64,000 nucleotides of DNA, taken from Nitrospirota bacterium (lineage in GTDB: Bacteria; Nitrospirota; Leptospirillia; Leptospirillales; Leptospirillaceae). Shown in pieces: positions 1-7,722 of this stretch (position 1 is the stretch's first letter; every line of letters begins with the position of its first letter). The notes under the pieces are model-generated. The model saw nothing but the letters and a program-made list of their open reading frames with translations, ran no database searches and had not been told where the DNA came from. The stretch covers positions 1 through 64,000 of the forward strand of contig JAKADN010000005.1 in NCBI GenBank assembly GCA_021820445.1. Reading direction: 5' to 3'. The position numbers were made by a program, and so were the translations under genes.

Positions 1-133
1 CGGAGGGTCATTCCTCCGAGTCGGTGGCCTGACCATTCAGGCTCCCGATCCATCCCCGTGAAGAGCCGGGGAGATGGCAGGAAGGAATCCCCTCCCTTTC
101 CGCTTTCGCGGCGAGCGAAGCGAGAGGGAGGGG
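1..133. other. Cluster of four strong hairpins at the window edge
   Basis: No gene is recognised here, but the sequence can fold into four successive hairpins. Bases 1-6 pair with 13-18. Bases 27-32 pair with 37-42, extended by 21-24 with 45-48. Bases 53-58 pair with 67-72. Bases 89-96 (CCCCTCCC) pair perfectly with 126-133 (GGGAGGGG), around an inner stem of 101-109 with 115-122. This could be the 3' part of a structured RNA, a REP-like palindromic repeat, or terminators of a gene left of the window. No T-tract follows the stems, so simple intrinsic termination is not the obvious reading. Confidence 0.4.
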
Positions 134-725
134 AGGATGTCAACTCTTCCAATAATTTATCGAGATGTTTCATTCCTTATTCCCGGATTTTGTCCGGATC
201 TCCGTCTATGCTTCAGAGGAATAGTTTTGAGAAATTTTCAAATTTCTTCCGGATCCCCGAAATACTGTCCAGATTTGCTGACGACAATGATCATGGAATG
301 AGTCAATCAAGTTATTTTGGTTGAATGTTTCTGTGAATTAATTCCAATACGGGATGCTTTTTTTTATTGTCCCCAAATCCAGACATGGACGTGATTCATG
401 AGACTGTTCTATTTTTAAAATCCTTCATTTTAAAATGCTTACGTTTGTTTTATGGAAATGATTCTCTTTGTCAGAAGATCGTTTCAGGATTTTGTTTTTA
501 TGAGAGATGTAACCCTATTCCGGGTCTCGATATTTTAATTGGCATGATTATTGTTAGCTAAATAGTGATACATGATCTATCGGAGGGTGGAGCGTCTCGA
601 AAGACGATGTTTATCTTCTCTCATTTTTTCAAAAATCATCCCTCCCTAAATCCCTCAGTGATTCCGATAGCCGATTTCAGGATTCGTAGGTTCCGAGGAC
701 CCAATCTCCAGGGAAGGAGCGGGCC
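134..725. other. AT-rich stretch without a recognisable gene
   Basis: About 590 bases, clearly more AT-rich than the coding DNA that follows, especially 160-620. The open frames here are short, have unusual codons, show no family resemblance and mostly lack a ribosome binding site. It probably holds the promoter of the following gene, but I cannot pick a convincing -35/-10 pair. Confidence 0.4.
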
Positions 726-1487
726 ATGACGATACGCCTTTACGGGAACGAGGCCTTGAAGGAGGCCTATTGTGCGGACCGGAATGTGGATCTCCTCATC
801 AACGCCAAATTTGCGGTCGACGATCGAGGAGAATCCAGACCCCTGGATCCCTTCCAGGCCATCGAACTGGTGAAAGGCCGAAGGATCGATCCTGCCGCCC
901 TTTACTGCGAGGTTCCGTCCGTCTGGGAACATCTGATCTCGGGAGGGTTCGGTGGGGGGACCTTCGAGATTCTTTCCGCTCCCCATACCGTTCTTCTGCT
1001 GACAAGGGATCATGGATATCCCCTCTCGGAGGGGGTTCGGGGCCTCGCGGCAAAGTCATCCCTCTTTGAGAAGGCCGGTGGGTGGGCCAAAGGCGCCCCG
1101 TTGGCCGAACCCGACCGCGACTGGCACTCCTTTGTCAGTCGACTCGAACCCCTTCTTCCTCTCCGAAAAAACGCCTGGCGTCAAAACGAGGATCTCGGAG
1201 CGCATGCCCGGGAGATTGCGGCCCTTCTGATCGACCGCTTTGCTCTCGACCCCTCGCTCATCCGGGAAAATCTCCTGGCCAAGGGGGTCGTCACGTACGT
1301 TCCCGGTCTTCCGACTTATGGCGGAGCGCTTCTCGATGCCGTTCTGGATCAGCTCCGGAGTCGGCATGTTTCTTCCGAAGGTGGCCTGAACCCGGACCCG
1401 ATCCATTTTGTCGTGGAGTCCAGCTCCTGGATGGGAGCCTCGAGGGGGGAAAAAGTATCCCCGAAGGCAGCGGAACTCCAGGGGTGA
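726..1487 (+). CDS. Unknown protein, paralogue 1 of a local three-member family
   Basis: A 253-residue protein I do not recognise. It is clearly homologous to the products at 3170 and 4444. Shared features in order: an N-terminal ALxxAYxAxRN-type motif (residues 10-20), DPFQA (41-45), CEVxSVW (61-67), a hydrophobic VLLLTR strand (89-94), EGVRG (102-106), a PLxxPDxDxxxF segment (125-136), LEPxxPL (140-146), AREI (161-164), a FGLDP-like segment (172-176) and YGGxLLDxVL (198-207). There is no signal peptide, no membrane segment and no obvious cofactor motif, so it is probably a soluble cytoplasmic protein. An AAGGAG site precedes the ATG. The last ~40 residues are unique to this copy and look poorly conserved. 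Neighbours suggest a stress or redox setting, but function is unknown. Confidence 0.8.
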   Translation: MTIRLYGNEALKEAYCADRNVDLLINAKFAVDDRGESRPLDPFQAIELVKGRRIDPAALYCEVPSVWEHLISGGFGGGTFEILSAPHTVLLLTRDHGYPLSEGVRGLAAKSSLFEKAGGWAKGAPLAEPDRDWHSFVSRLEPLLPLRKNAWRQNEDLGAHAREIAALLIDRFALDPSLIRENLLAKGVVTYVPGLPTYGGALLDAVLDQLRSRHVSSEGGLNPDPIHFVVESSSWMGASRGEKVSPKAAELQG

Positions 1488-1950
1488 CCCTGGCCTCGTC
1501 AAGATTCTCAAGGTCTTTTCTGAAAAACATCGATCAAAAATGATTACCCTCGGCCCCGGGAGTCCTCTTCCGCGCGGGGTTTTGACGATCCGGCGGTTTG
1601 GCCATTCCGGATGGCGGATGGAGGTTATCCGGATTGATGTCGGGAAGGCTCGGACAGCCATCGTCCTTTTGGGGAGGATCTGGTCGACTTGTTCCATTCA
1701 TTTATGAAAGGGCTGTCACCCGGGAAAGATCCTTGACCTTGAAGAGGAAGGGGGTAGAGGGCGGGGGATTCGCTGAAGGAGGCAAACGCTGTCATCGACT
1801 TGATTCCGAGCCGAGGACCCCCAGGGGGTGCAGGTACCCCCGCGGATTGGATTGACGGAGTCCCGGCGGCGGAAACGAGGGGGAGGCTCCGGGAAAATGG
1901 CGGATCGAGGAGTACCGAACAAAAAGGTGTGAATCAGGGAGGAGAGGCTT
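1488..1950 (+). other. Intergenic region, no supported gene
   Basis: About 460 bases between paralogue 1 and the CDGSH gene. A 55-residue frame from an ATG at 1540 ends at 1707, but it has no ribosome binding site and no recognisable similarity, so I do not call it. No terminator or promoter is convincing. Confidence 0.35.
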
Positions 1951-2145
1951 ATGGAAAAGATCCGGATGGACTGCATGAAGAATGGTCCCTACAAGGTGGT
2001 CGGCGATCTGCTCATCGTGGATGCGAACGGGAAGAGCGTCAGCGCCCAAGGGGCGACCACCTATCATCTCTGCCGTTGCGGAGGATCCGGAAAAAAACCC
2101 TTTTGTGACGGAACCCACGCGAAAATAAAATTTGTTTCGGAGTGA
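1951..2145 (+). CDS. CDGSH-type iron-sulfur protein
   Basis: A 64-residue protein with one CDGSH (mitoNEET-type) domain. The signature C-x-C-x2-S-x3-P-x-C-D-G-x-H is complete near the C-terminus (CRCGGSGKKPFCDGTH). Its three Cys and one His are known to bind a redox-active, acid-labile [2Fe-2S] cluster in this family. The length is normal for a bacterial single-domain member. There is no membrane anchor, so it is a soluble electron-transfer or redox-sensing protein. The start has a strong GGAGGAGAGG site. It lies between two members of the local unknown family and just before a secreted metal-binding-like protein, which fits redox or metal stress. The physiological partner is not evident. Confidence 0.9.
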   Translation: MEKIRMDCMKNGPYKVVGDLLIVDANGKSVSAQGATTYHLCRCGGSGKKPFCDGTHAKIKFVSE

Positions 2146-2306
2146 CGGCTGATCCGATGCCAGCCCCTCGAACAGGGGCATTCATCATCCGGAATCGGAA
2201 AGCGTCGGGCTCACACCTCGAAAAGGGCAGACGGAATTGGCGAATCGGTGCGAAGGGAGGGACTCCGGTGTTCCGGATTTCCGGTCGCATGGACAAGGAG
2301 GAAGGG

Positions 2307-2639
2307 ATGGGCGGGCGAATCGTTACGGTCGCAATGGCAATCACGCTTTCCCTGGGCACTCTTCTTCCGCTTTTGGCGCTTCCGGCTCTTCCGGGCGCGC
2401 TGGCGGGAGAGGGGACAGTCGCCCTGAAGCTGGGAGGGCAATATTGCAATTTCTACCTGGGCGATGTCAAGAAGGCCTTGATGAAAGTTCCGGGGGTGAA
2501 AGGGGTTTCCTTCGATAAATCGGGGAGCACGGTTGTGGTCACGGAAGATCCCGGAAAGGTGAGCGCAGGGAAGCTGATCCGGACAATTCGGGGCGTCCAT
2601 GGAGAGGCTTGGAGCTGCGATGCGAAAAAGGCGGACTAG
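2307..2639 (+). CDS. Secreted HMA-like (MerP-like) protein with reduced metal motif
   Basis: A 110-residue product. Residues 1-30 form a clear signal peptide (hydrophobic stretch ending near ALAG). The rest resembles a heavy-metal-associated ferredoxin-like fold: a VALKLGG strand, a helix (DVKKALMKVPGVKGVSFD), a VVVTEDPGKVS strand and a final helix. Classical HMA domains bind Cu or Hg through CxxC. Here only one Cys sits in that loop (GGQYCNFY), with a second Cys near the C-terminus (SCDAKK), so metal binding of the normal type is doubtful. The frame is open back to 2142, overlapping the CDGSH stop, but the AAGGAGGA site points to the ATG at 2307. It is likely periplasmic. A role in metal or redox sensing is inference. 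Confidence 0.75.
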   Translation: MGGRIVTVAMAITLSLGTLLPLLALPALPGALAGEGTVALKLGGQYCNFYLGDVKKALMKVPGVKGVSFDKSGSTVVVTEDPGKVSAGKLIRTIRGVHGEAWSCDAKKAD

Positions 2640-2822
2640 TACAGAGGATTGGGGGGCTTCTTTTCGTCTCGTCGCCCCTCGATGGGAGGGAGAAGCCAGG
2701 GGGCGAAGGAATCACTCCCCGACATCCTCAATGCGGGTGAAGCTCCTGAGGAGGAGCGTTGCCAGGGTATCCGGCAGTCTTTATTTGCCGGAGCGATCCT
2801 TACAGCCGATCGGAGGTCCGAC

Positions 2823-3008
2823 ATGAACAGGATGGCCCGAAGAAACCCCATTGTTCTCATCGAGAAGGATGGACTGGTCCGGAATCTCTTCCCCATGGAC
2901 GGGACCCTGCAAAAGGCTCTCGGGAAGGGCTCCGGAGTCCGGAAAACGCCAACGTTGTCCGGCCGATTTCTGGCCGCTCTCCGCAGAAGCCTGATGTTCT
3001 GGAACTGA
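2823..3008 (+). CDS. Possible small basic protein of unknown function
   Basis: A 61-residue frame preceded by GGAGG six bases before the ATG. The product is basic, without recognisable domain or signal peptide, and has a short region reading NPIVLIEKDGLVRNLFPMDG. It lies between the HMA-like gene and the second member of the unknown family. Support is only the ribosome binding site and the position. It could be spurious. The rest of 2640-3169 shows nothing else. Confidence 0.35.
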   Translation: MNRMARRNPIVLIEKDGLVRNLFPMDGTLQKALGKGSGVRKTPTLSGRFLAALRRSLMFWN

Positions 3009-3169
3009 AAGAGACAACTCCATACTTTCATAGTGGAGGAAACAACGACAGCAGGGATTGAGGCGATACCAAGGGCCTGAAGAACCGGCACTCGGGGAAT
3101 GGAGGAGGGCCAAGGGGGTCAAGGGCGTCTCCACCGAGGCGCATTGTCACCTGAAGGAGGAAAGAGACG

Positions 3170-3904
3170 ATGATCAGGCTCAAAGGGCGAGAGGCCCTTC
3201 TTTATGCGTATTATGCCATTCTCTCCCGGGAAACCGGGCCGGATCCTTTCCCCCGATTCCTGGCAGAGGGAGACGAGGGGCGCTTCCTGGAGCCGGAAGA
3301 GATTCTGGCGGGAATCGGCCATGGCCGAATCAAAAGAGAGTCCCTGTTTTGCGACATTCCCTCGGTCTGGGATCTCCTTCTTGAGGCCGAAGCGGAAGGC
3401 TCTCTTGTCATGCACCCCTCCCGGAATACGGTTCTCGTCTTCACTGCGTCCCACGGGGCCGACCTGGGAGACGGCGTCCGGGGCTTCGCCATCCATGCCG
3501 AGGTCTTTGAGCACGCCTCCCTGCAGGCGATGCAGACACCGGTCGAGAATCGCGACTACGACTATGGCAGATTCCTGATTTCGCTCTATCCCCGGATGCC
3601 TCTTCTGCGGGGCCGCTGGGAGAAGGATCTGGACCTCCTCCGCTATTCGATCGAGATTGCGCTCGAACTGATGACCCTCTTTGGACTTGATGCCCCCCTG
3701 GTCTGGAAGGAGTTCTCGGGCGAATCCCCCGAAAAAGGGTTCACGGAGGAGCATGTTGTTCATGGGGGGGTGCTTCTGGACCATGTTTTGGACAGGATCA
3801 GGGAAAAGCCTGTCTCTCTGTCCGATTTGGGGGCGGCTTCCGGAAGGGGGACCTCTCTTCCGGGGCTCTTTTCCAGACCAGCGCTTGCAAAGGAGACGCG
3901 ATGA
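3170..3904 (+). CDS. Unknown protein, paralogue 2 of a local three-member family
   Basis: A 244-residue product homologous to those at 726 and 4444 but the most divergent. It keeps the N-terminal ALLYAYYA motif, the LFCDIPSVWDLL segment, a TVLVFTASHG strand, DGVRGFA, an YDYGRFLISLYPRMPL stretch, an amphipathic helix ending in LFGLDAP, and GGVLLDHVLDRIR near the C-terminus. There is no signal peptide or membrane segment. A strong AAGGAGG site precedes the ATG. Its stop overlaps the start of the CBS-domain gene (ATGA), so the two are translationally coupled, which suggests a functional link with a nucleotide-sensing CBS protein. Function unknown. Confidence 0.8.
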   Translation: MIRLKGREALLYAYYAILSRETGPDPFPRFLAEGDEGRFLEPEEILAGIGHGRIKRESLFCDIPSVWDLLLEAEAEGSLVMHPSRNTVLVFTASHGADLGDGVRGFAIHAEVFEHASLQAMQTPVENRDYDYGRFLISLYPRMPLLRGRWEKDLDLLRYSIEIALELMTLFGLDAPLVWKEFSGESPEKGFTEEHVVHGGVLLDHVLDRIREKPVSLSDLGAASGRGTSLPGLFSRPALAKETR

Positions 3905-4371
3905 ATGTGTCTGAGATCATGACGAAGAAGGTGGCCTCCTGCAGGCCGGAGGCAACCCTGGCCACGGTGGCGGGCCTGATGTGGTCGGAAAACATCGGAA
4001 GTGTGGTGGCCGTTGACGCGCAAGGGGTTCCCGTGGGAATTGTGACCGACCGGGACATCGCCATGGCGTCCTTTCTGAACCACAGATCCCTGTGGGATCT
4101 GACGGTCCAGAATATCATTTCCGGCCATACTCTTCGGACCTGCCGCCCCGAGGATTCTGCGGAATCGGCGGTCGAGGCCATGCGGGCTTATGAGATCCGC
4201 CGTCTTCCCGTCGTCGACGGAAAGGGCCGCCTTTTGGGGATTCTCTCCCTGGGTGACCTGGTTTCGGCCGCCGAACCCGGAATGGGACGAAAAAAACCGG
4301 ATCTTCCGCTCCACGCCCTGGAACCCGCATTGAGGGCGGTTTTTGCACATCATGCGCTGACGACGGCCTGA
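3901..4371 (+). CDS. CBS-pair domain protein
   Basis: A 156-residue protein made of a tandem CBS pair: the first repeat spans about residues 1-60 (MNVSEIMTKKVASCRPEATLA onward, with GIVTDRDIA), the second about 70-125 (HTLRTCRPEDSAESAVEAM, then RRLPVVDGKGRLLGILSLGDL). Such stand-alone pairs bind adenine nucleotides or S-adenosylmethionine and regulate partners. The length is standard. It is soluble and cytoplasmic. The gene overlaps paralogue 2 by four bases and is followed 72 bases later by paralogue 3, which makes the unknown family its best candidate partner (inference). The C-terminal ~25 residues have no clear homology. Confidence 0.9.
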   Translation: MNVSEIMTKKVASCRPEATLATVAGLMWSENIGSVVAVDAQGVPVGIVTDRDIAMASFLNHRSLWDLTVQNIISGHTLRTCRPEDSAESAVEAMRAYEIRRLPVVDGKGRLLGILSLGDLVSAAEPGMGRKKPDLPLHALEPALRAVFAHHALTTA

Positions 4372-4443
4372 TCCACGAAAGTTAGAAGGAGCCTTTTTCC
4401 CAAGGCCCTCGTCGATTTTTATTTATCAGGGAAGGAGAGCGTC

Positions 4444-5154
4444 ATGACGATTCATCTGACCGGATACGAAGCCCTCACCGAGGCCTATTACGCGAACCGG
4501 AATGTGGAGGTCCTGCTTCACGCCCGGTTCACCATCGATGTCGACGGAAGAAAAATACCGGTGGATCCCTTCCAGGCACTCGAAAAGGTTGACCGTTGGG
4601 AGCTTTCCCCGGAAAAACTCTCCTGCGAGGTTTGCTCTGTCTGGGATTTTCTGATGTGTGGCGGGGAAGGGGGGGACTTGTTCCATGTCCACATCGCTCC
4701 GAGAACGGCCCTAGTCCTGACCCGGGAGTACGGGGACAGGCTTGCGGAAGGAATCCGGGCCGTTGCGGTCGCGGGAGCGGTCTTCGAAAGGGCCGTTTCC
4801 TGGGCCGTGAAGGTCCCCCTGACCGATCCTGGCCACGATCTGTACGCCTTTCTGGGGAGACTCGAGCCACGGATGCCGCTCGGAATCCGGGAATGGGCGC
4901 AGAACGGCGATCTCCGGCGCTGTGCCCGGGAGATCGGAATGAGTCTGGTCGATCTTTTCGGGCTGGACCCGGAGTCGGTCGGCGCGACCCTTCGTGCCAG
5001 GCATGTCCTTGACTACGAGTGCGAGGACCGCTCCTATGGAGGAGATCTTCTGGACATCGTCCTGGAGATTCTCCGGAAAGGCGGGTCGCTGTCGGAGCGG
5101 ACGGGAAGAGGGGGAGGCGACACATCGCATTCCCCTTTTGCCTGGGCTCTCTGA
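4444..5154 (+). CDS. Unknown protein, paralogue 3 of a local three-member family
   Basis: A 236-residue product closest to the protein at 726. It shares the ALTEAYYANRNVEVLLHARF start, VDPFQALEKV, the SCEVCSVWDFL segment, TALVLTREYG, EGIRAVAV, a WAVKVPLTDPGHDLYAFL stretch, RLEPRMPLG, CAREIGMSLVDLFGLDPESV and YGGDLLDIVLEILR. No cofactor motif, signal peptide or membrane segment is seen. A GGGAAGGAG site precedes the ATG. It follows the CBS gene by 72 bases and precedes hsp20 by 157. Three copies in 4.4 kb with intervening unrelated genes indicate local duplication and maintenance. Function unknown. Confidence 0.8.
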   Translation: MTIHLTGYEALTEAYYANRNVEVLLHARFTIDVDGRKIPVDPFQALEKVDRWELSPEKLSCEVCSVWDFLMCGGEGGDLFHVHIAPRTALVLTREYGDRLAEGIRAVAVAGAVFERAVSWAVKVPLTDPGHDLYAFLGRLEPRMPLGIREWAQNGDLRRCAREIGMSLVDLFGLDPESVGATLRARHVLDYECEDRSYGGDLLDIVLEILRKGGSLSERTGRGGGDTSHSPFAWAL

Positions 5155-6235: not shown

Positions 6236-6288
6236 AGGTCCGTCTTTCATGATTCCGTGGAGGAGATCCTCGGACCAGGAGCATTGTC

Positions 6289-6364
6289 GGGGCGTGGCGC
6301 AGCCTGGTAGCGCACACCGTTCGGGACGGTGGGGTCGAAGGTTCAAATCCTTTCGCCCCGACCA
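6289..6364 (+). tRNA. tRNA-Pro (anticodon CGG)
   Basis: A complete cloverleaf: acceptor stem GGGGCG(T) with (T)CGCCCC, D arm GCGC...GCGC, anticodon stem CACCG/CGGTG with loop TTCGGGA (anticodon CGG), T arm with GGTTCAAATCC, and encoded CCA. It reads CCG codons. Outside the anticodon arm it is identical to the tRNA at 35218. Confidence 0.95.
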
Positions 6365-6448: not shown

Positions 6449-6766
6449 ATGCCGATCATGCCGATGAAGAGATGCGTCCTCCAGATCAAGGTCACCGGAC
6501 GGGTCCAGGGCGTTGGGTTCCGGGCCTATGTGAAGGCGCGTGCCGACGAGGTTGGGGTTTTTGGCTGGGTCCGCAATCTTGCCGATGGTTCGGTCCATGT
6601 GCTCGCCTTCCTTCCCGAGGAACGGCGTTCCTCCTGGATCGAAAGCGTGAGACGGGGGCCTCCCGGGTCCATGGTGGACTCCCTCGACATCCGGAATCTC
6701 TCCTCCGAGGAGGTTCCAGGATTGTCGGACCTTCGGGAGTTCCGAATCGAGAGGGACGCTGAATGA
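6449..6766 (+). CDS. acyP: Acylphosphatase
   Basis: Hydrolyses acyl phosphates such as acetyl phosphate and 1,3-bisphosphoglycerate; small and cytosolic. The family signature [13 protein letters not shown] carries the catalytic Arg, and [11 protein letters not shown] carries the catalytic Asn. The product is 105 residues (or 100 if translation begins at the third ATG, 6464). Neither start has a good ribosome binding site, so the start is uncertain. The stop overlaps the start of the sigma-factor gene (ATGA), so the two are translationally coupled. Confidence 0.9.
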
Positions 6767-7722
6767 CCGACGATACGCTGGAAGACGCGGAAGAGCCGGG
6801 AGAAGAGGAATCTGTACAGCCCGAGGTTCCAGAAGCGGAGCCGTCTTCCCTCGATGCGGGGTCGCTGGGGCTTTACCTGAAAAAACTCCGGGACTATCCC
6901 CTTCTCTCTGCTGAGGAGGAGGTGGCCCTGGCCCGGGAGATCGGGAAGGGAAATGCCGCGGCCCGGGAGAGGATGATCCTTTCGAATCTCCGTCTGGTCG
7001 TGCTGATCGCCAAGCGGTATGTGGGTCGGGGGCTCGCCTTCTCCGACCTGATCGAGGAAGGGAACATCGGCCTCATGAAGGCGGTCGACCGATTCGATCC
7101 GGAGAAGGGCTTCCGGTTCAGCACATACGCGTCCTGGTGGATCCGCCAGGCGATTGAACGGGCCGCCATCAACCAGGGCCATCTGATCCGACTGCCCGTC
7201 CATATGATGGAAAAGGTCAACCAGTACCTCTCCCAGGTCGAGCAGATGGTCTCCGAAGGCCGGGATCCGGATCCGGAGGCGGCGGCCCGGAAGGCGCGTC
7301 TCTCGGTCTCCGAATTCGAGAGCCTTCACCAGGTTCTACGGGCGGCCGTCTCCCTCGATGCGCCGATCGGGGAACGGGACGAAAACAGCCTCAAGGACAT
7401 TCTCGAGGACAGGGGGGCCGACTCTCCCCTCGACGTCGTGGAAAAAAAGGAAAGCGTTCAGGGAATTTCCGCGGCCTTTGCAGTCCTCAGGCCGAAGGAG
7501 CGCCAGGTCATCTCCCTCCGCTTCGGCCTTGAAGGGGGCGAAACCCTGACTCTCGAGGAGATTGGAAAGATTCTCGGTGTCACCCGGGAGAGGGTTCGCC
7601 AGATCGAGGCGGTGGCTCTCTCCAAGATGCGCGCCTATCTCGACGATGCACGACCCTTTGCGACTCACCCCGTTCCGGAGGCGCCGGGAGGGAAAGAGCG
7701 GGCGGCCCGTCCGTCTATTTGA
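6763..7722 (+). CDS. rpoS: RNA polymerase sigma factor, RpoS-like (group 2)
   Basis: A 319-residue sigma-70 family protein. Region 1.2 begins at [16 protein letters not shown] (about residue 30). Region 2 holds [30 protein letters not shown] and [16 protein letters not shown] (core and -10 binding). Region 3 follows LIRLPVHM, and region 4 ends with the helix-turn-helix [21 protein letters not shown]. It lacks the long region 1.1 and non-conserved region of housekeeping RpoD. Length and the LIRLPVH motif fit a stationary-phase/stress sigma of the RpoS type. The exact regulon cannot be told. The acidic N-terminal ~28 residues are not conserved. It shares an operon with acyP. Confidence 0.9.

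Follow-up and report, generated by a model that had tools for sequence, protein, structure and literature searches.

The window analysed here is a stretch of 64,000 nucleotides at the start of a contig from a Nitrospirota bacterium of the Leptospirillaceae (contig JAKADN010000005.1, forward strand; genome G000 in what follows). Three genes of an unrecognised protein family, here called a, b and c, lie near its beginning, together with the following genes and sequence elements:

1..143, no strand assigned: repeat at the contig start, with stretches 88% and 85% identical to it at L037:7013-7089 and L033:14393-14521
266..281, + strand: box 1, TGTCCAGATTTGCTGA, putative enhancer site of a sigma-54 enhancer-binding protein (EBP), conserved in the orthologous intergenic regions
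368..385, + strand: box 2, a TGTC-N10-GACA dyad and putative enhancer site of the EBP, recurring as the identical dyad at the corresponding position in G006, G008 and G013
467..480, + strand: box 3, half-site TTTGTC, some 100 bp beyond box 2
540..555, + strand: sigma-54-like promoter, TGGCATGATTATTGTT, with GT instead of GC in the -12 element
706..719, + strand: hairpin CTCC-AGGGAA-GGAG, covering the Shine-Dalgarno sequence of gene a
726..1487, + strand: family gene a, 253 aa
1951..2145, + strand: CDGSH iron-sulphur protein, accessory, 64 aa (PF09360, E 2e-18)
2307..2639, + strand: exported HMA (MerP-like) metal-binding protein, accessory (PF00403, E 8e-6; MerP, E 7e-7)
2823..3008, + strand: orf61, basic 61-aa microprotein of an unannotated family
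3170..3904, + strand: family gene b, 244 aa, its stop overlapping the CBS start (ATGA)
3901..4371, + strand: tandem CBS-domain protein, 156 aa, two CBS domains (PF00571, E 6e-26)
4444..5154, + strand: family gene c, 236 aa
5312..5776, + strand: cassette-specific Hsp20, a small heat-shock protein (PF00011, E 2e-24)

The three family reading frames all have ATG starts and good Shine-Dalgarno sites, and their products align from end to end with pairwise identities of 34% (a and b), 46-48% (a and c) and 39% (b and c). Searched against the whole genome, c retrieves the other two with E values of 4e-57 (a) and 3e-26 (b), and the three paralogues that the initial annotation had placed at 726, 3170 and 4444 are thereby borne out by full-length alignment and by whole-genome search. 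A weak hit at G000:C105 (E 0.07), considered as a possible fourth copy, was put down to chance, and no other convincing copy was found genome-wide. Compared with the orthologues in G009, dN/dS is 0.26 for a, 0.31 for b and 0.28 for c, and the differences between orthologues fall mostly at third positions; the third-position excess and these ratios indicate that the reading frames are not chance. The flanking apt gene has a lower dN/dS in the same comparison (0.05), and the ratios of all three family genes are well under 1. Judged from these substitution patterns, a, b and c are real paralogues under purifying selection, if fairly fast-evolving, and the claim that the copies have been retained holds. 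The motif series said to be shared by the three products does occur in the same succession, but it is looser than listed, since copy b deviates (CDIPSVW, DGVRG, LYPRMPL, FGLDA, HGGVLLD) and lacks DPFQA. The proposed translational coupling of one copy to the CBS gene is matched by the ATGA at 3901-3904, in which the stop codon of b overlaps the CBS start.

To characterise the family, 24 members were collected. None has a significant match in Pfam, NCBIfam or PHROGs, the 24-member profile has no match among PDB sequences, and searches for viral, phage or plasmid carriage of the family gave no match. We considered a defence-system identity and dropped it, because a, b and c are without a match in PADLOC. 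Seven positions are invariant in all 24 members (W67, G97, L140, P142, L168, G200 and D204 in the numbering of c); these residues look structural and not catalytic, though the proteins may yet be enzymes. Two AlphaFold2 models, built from an alignment of limited depth (7 sequences only, from the window, L029 and L030), reached a mean pLDDT of 67 and 75 and a pTM of 0.53 and 0.67. They predict a mixed alpha/beta N-terminal part, with a beta-alpha-beta-beta-alpha-beta-like arrangement in both models, and a mainly helical C-terminal part. With these models, Foldseek found no match at E <= 0.001 in the PDB or among viral models; the best matches, CorA fragments and SUMT-like domains, were rejected at this threshold and had TM-scores, normalised to the query, no higher than about 0.2. 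With only seven sequences usable for modelling, a new fold is not established. The profile search that had been suggested thus matched no characterised domain, and the suggested structure prediction, with models of only moderate confidence, gave no match in the fold libraries; the family deserves the description "unrecognised" in respect of the profile and sequence collections (Pfam, NCBIfam, PHROGs, PADLOC, PDB).

The family is present in 10 of the 21 genomes of Leptospirillaceae, the taxonomic family of the window, and is absent from all 375 of the other Nitrospirota genomes searched. A contig scan with patterns too narrow to judge other phyla returned two loci, both in Nitrospirae MAGs. Among the Leptospirillaceae without the family is a complete genome, G015. 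The family tree falls into three groups, one a/c-like, one b-like and one distant, the last found in two other genera. The orthologues of a, of b and of c each cluster across species, indicating that the copies arose before the species diverged. G012 carries five copies on four contigs. Contigs G012:C37 and G017:C41 (L039, L088) share, across genera, 2,720 bp that are 99.8% identical and carry a family gene, reflecting either recent transfer or a mis-binned contig. At L039:1391-2896 a 501-aa protein without a Pfam match reaches, and perhaps overlaps, the start of a family gene, and at L042:6508-7263 (G012:C23) a DUF6891 protein lies immediately 3' of one.

Some copies show signs of decay. In G008 and G013 the last 150-160 residues of copy b are constrained (dN/dS about 0.34) and no in-frame counterpart of the first 55-60 residues can be recognised; the members at G016:C25 and G017:C11 are in a similar N-terminal state. 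Either the N-terminal part is dispensable in these copies, or the copies are decaying. One outcome named beforehand as speaking against a real role was a lack of homologues outside this genome together with disrupted copies in related strains. It applies in part: homologues do occur elsewhere, but in two relatives the N-terminus of b is degenerate.

G000, G009, G008 and G013 share the gene order b-CBS-c-Hsp20, and a contig of G002 begins with CBS-c-Hsp20. In G016:C25, which belongs to another genus, a family member is followed by CBS and by an Hsp20 gene broken by a stop; a member adjoins Hsp20 in G009:C65 and G012:C23, and in G017:C11 a member precedes a CBS remnant. At several further loci (G018, G014, G016:C76 and G012:C16) neither CBS nor Hsp20 adjoins the family gene. 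Co-occurrence, the other suggested check, was scored among these genomes, many of which are incomplete: an orthologue of the cassette CBS gene is found in 7 of the 10 family-positive genomes and in none of the 11 family-negative ones (p 0.001), although in G017 it is located apart from the family members. For G006, which was counted as negative, a cassette truncated at the contig end is probable, since its contig stops just after the EBP gene and orf61. The linkage of the family to CBS and Hsp20 is genuine, occurring in several species and at different sites. The cassette Hsp20 is an extra copy; the genome encodes two others. orf61 has no match in Pfam, is of identical length in the G000, G009, G008, G013 and G006 cassettes, and its relatives are 41-69% identical to the copy in the window. 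All four neighbours named in the initial annotation (CDGSH, HMA, CBS and Hsp20) were confirmed by Pfam, but two of them are not core: CDGSH and HMA accompany the family in no more than two genomes, the closest ones, and a CDGSH orthologue at the equal position was found only in G009, so that we rejected them as core parts. The gene context was otherwise as described, with the omission of orf61 (2823-3008) and of the regulatory region upstream of a.

The cassette is located between CobB/CobD and acyP-sigma-apt. In G003, G005, G011 and G015 these flanks are separated by 2.7-3.8 kb without any cassette gene, and in the window the GC content and GC3 of the cassette are near the values of the flanking genes. 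The sigma-70-family sigma factor gene that adjoins the cassette (6763-7722) is kept also in cassette-free genomes. An Rfam search found only a tRNA (6288-6361) above the cut-off. From gene content and order, the family genes occupy a stress-gene cassette that is conserved among iron-oxidising bacteria of the Leptospirillum type.

In G008, G013 and G006 the cassette is preceded by the gene of an EBP with a VpsR-type (VpsR-like receiver) domain, an AAA+ domain with GAFTGA and a Fis-type helix-turn-helix. In G000 a 71% identical orthologue is the last gene before a contig end, on C109, where CobB is also encoded, and we infer that C109 joins the window contig, C12. A transposase-like reading frame starts after the EBP gene at this end of C109, and the repeat at 1..143 probably marks one end of an insertion element lying, in G000, between the EBP gene and the cassette. 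For gene a of G009, the EBP was not seen on the same contig and its neighbourhood was taken from synteny; the EBP of G009:C45 is degenerate, without GAFTGA and without the helix-turn-helix. At L037:2075-3361 an EBP paralogue that has lost both elements adjoins an intact family gene. The sigma-54 factor itself is encoded in the genome (rpoN, G000:C28; PF04552, E 2.7e-62).

The three TGTCC-type boxes upstream of gene a have counterparts in G006, G008 and G013 that follow each other in the same order and at like spacing, 88-115 bp apart in the four genomes. Box 1 accumulates 5 mismatches in total over three orthologous intergenic regions, compared with 10 for the best of 60 shuffles, and its exact matches in the 21 genomes occur only at the cassette locus. 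Sigma-54-like sites scoring at least 9.4 precede 6 of the 7 first genes after an EBP gene (the site in the window included) and 8 of 241 controls, with a p of 7e-8 that is optimistic because the threshold was chosen afterwards and the loci are related. The -24 element TGGCA is present, the four closest orthologues have GT or GA in the -12 element where two other loci have GC, and the TGGCA and TTG elements hold their spacing across genomes; before the G008 cassette no good sigma-54-like site was found. The hairpin over the Shine-Dalgarno sequence of a belongs to a wider pattern, such hairpins preceding 13 of 20 family genes and 9 of 46 controls, and is absent before b and c in the window; translational control or an RNA thermometer is a possible function. 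Hairpins of the form CTCC-ANGGAA-GGAG at related loci show matching changes in the flanking pairs. Taken at the level of sequence, the view that the cassette is switched on by the adjacent sigma-54 activator is moderately supported, and the stress role suggested initially is strengthened by this activator and by the promoter and enhancer region.

CBS-domain proteins often sense nucleotides, and the stretches GIVTDRD and GILSLGD of the cassette protein fit the adenine-nucleotide signature of CBS domains. In the mycobacterial DosR dormancy regulon, the tandem-CBS protein Hrp1 and the alpha-crystallin Hsp20 HspX are induced together under stress. The cassette encodes the same two kinds of protein; DosR differs in its regulator class, does not involve sigma-54, includes universal stress proteins and has no known counterpart of the orphan family. 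Among the scanned cassette proteins there was no Usp (universal stress protein) match. The excerpted account of the NmpR regulon of Myxococcus xanthus describes a sigma-54 activator, paired enhancer sites and an operon that starts with the CBS-domain gene mxan_4236 and is induced in hypoxia (PMC11841059). The two systems share a sigma-54 activator and a CBS gene, and we make no claim of common ancestry; in M. xanthus, as far as that excerpt extends, the CBS gene is accompanied by a histidine-kinase cascade, the regulon has a universal stress protein, and there is no mention of the orphan family, orf61 or a cassette Hsp20 (PMC11841059). Redundancy of Hsp20 has been described in extreme acidophiles, Nitrospiria included, where the contexts given in the excerpted text for the hsp20 groups are alcohol dehydrogenase, HtrA/YidC and Lon, with a CBS or orphan-family context unmentioned (PMC10490939). 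By comparison with NmpR and DosR, the content of the cassette matches known stress and low-oxygen gene sets.

We therefore propose, with a probability of about 0.5, that this is a stress cassette induced by the EBP and sigma-54, and that its family proteins serve the CBS protein and Hsp20 as non-catalytic partners in the cytosol. The EBP would bind the spaced TGTCC boxes upstream of the first cassette gene and drive the sigma-54 promoter ahead of it, and transcription would yield orf61 together with the family, CBS and Hsp20 proteins, presumably from one transcript. Hsp20 would then hold unfolding proteins, the CBS protein would report the adenine-nucleotide state, and the family proteins would act as partners or adaptors of the two. 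We infer the use of the promoter, co-transcription, the inducing signal, the nucleotide gating and the partner role of the products. A non-catalytic function is suggested by the nature of the invariant residues (W, G, P, L and D), among which there is no catalytic-looking set of C, H or K. Against the proposal stand the GT or GA in the -12 element, the G008 cassette without a good site, the degenerate EBP of G009:C45 and the family loci with neither CBS nor Hsp20 beside them; the 463-bp gap between a and CDGSH, and others like it, leave room for further promoters.

This proposal has to be weighed against other readings, one of which concerns its promoter. An ordinary sigma-70 promoter may drive the cassette, the sigma-54-like sites being coincidental: a weak sigma-70-like site at 539-566, TTGGCA-N16-AATAGT, overlaps the sigma-54-like site, and the GC of the -12 element is not retained in the cassette orthologues. 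The repeated adjacency of the EBP, the constant TGGCA/TTG spacing and the conserved boxes upstream of the promoter site argue otherwise, and we find this reading rather unlikely. As for the proteins, they may be enzymes or ligand-binding proteins of a known but much-diverged fold, close to CBS and Hsp20 only through shared stress regulation. The mixed alpha/beta models and their beta-alpha-beta-beta-alpha-beta-like N-terminus are compatible with this, as is the shallow basis of those models; given that neither a profile match nor, at E <= 0.001, a structural match in the PDB or among viral models was obtained, and that the 24 members have no invariant catalytic-looking residues, we consider it doubtful.

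The locus may also be a variable accessory island, a hotspot beside insertion elements where genes accumulate and in which a selfish or defence-like family spreads and decays. Its patchy presence (10 of 21 genomes), the many copies near contig ends, the repeat or insertion element that adjoins the copy in the window, the degenerate copies and the multiple copies of G012 are what such an island would produce, but conserved gene order, purifying selection, the lack of a PADLOC match, the GC and GC3 values and the recovery of the orthologous groups a, b and c across species make it an unlikely account. A more specific version of the proposal that we prefer, the sigma-54-controlled stress cassette, would make the protein family, so far seen only in Leptospirillaceae, a dedicated co-chaperone or adaptor. 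It would couple the Hsp20 holdase to a CBS protein that senses adenine nucleotides, and the resulting protection of proteins would be ATP-independent and energy-gated; this is more speculative still, and we regard it as quite improbable.

A family that was an orphan in sequence thus gains a testable physiological frame, the proposed stress cassette under EBP/sigma-54 control in which a CBS sensor and an Hsp20 are encoded. The organisms that carry it are acidophilic iron oxidisers, important in mine drainage and bioleaching, and if the family proteins do partner Hsp20 or the CBS protein, they would represent a new kind of small-chaperone accessory.
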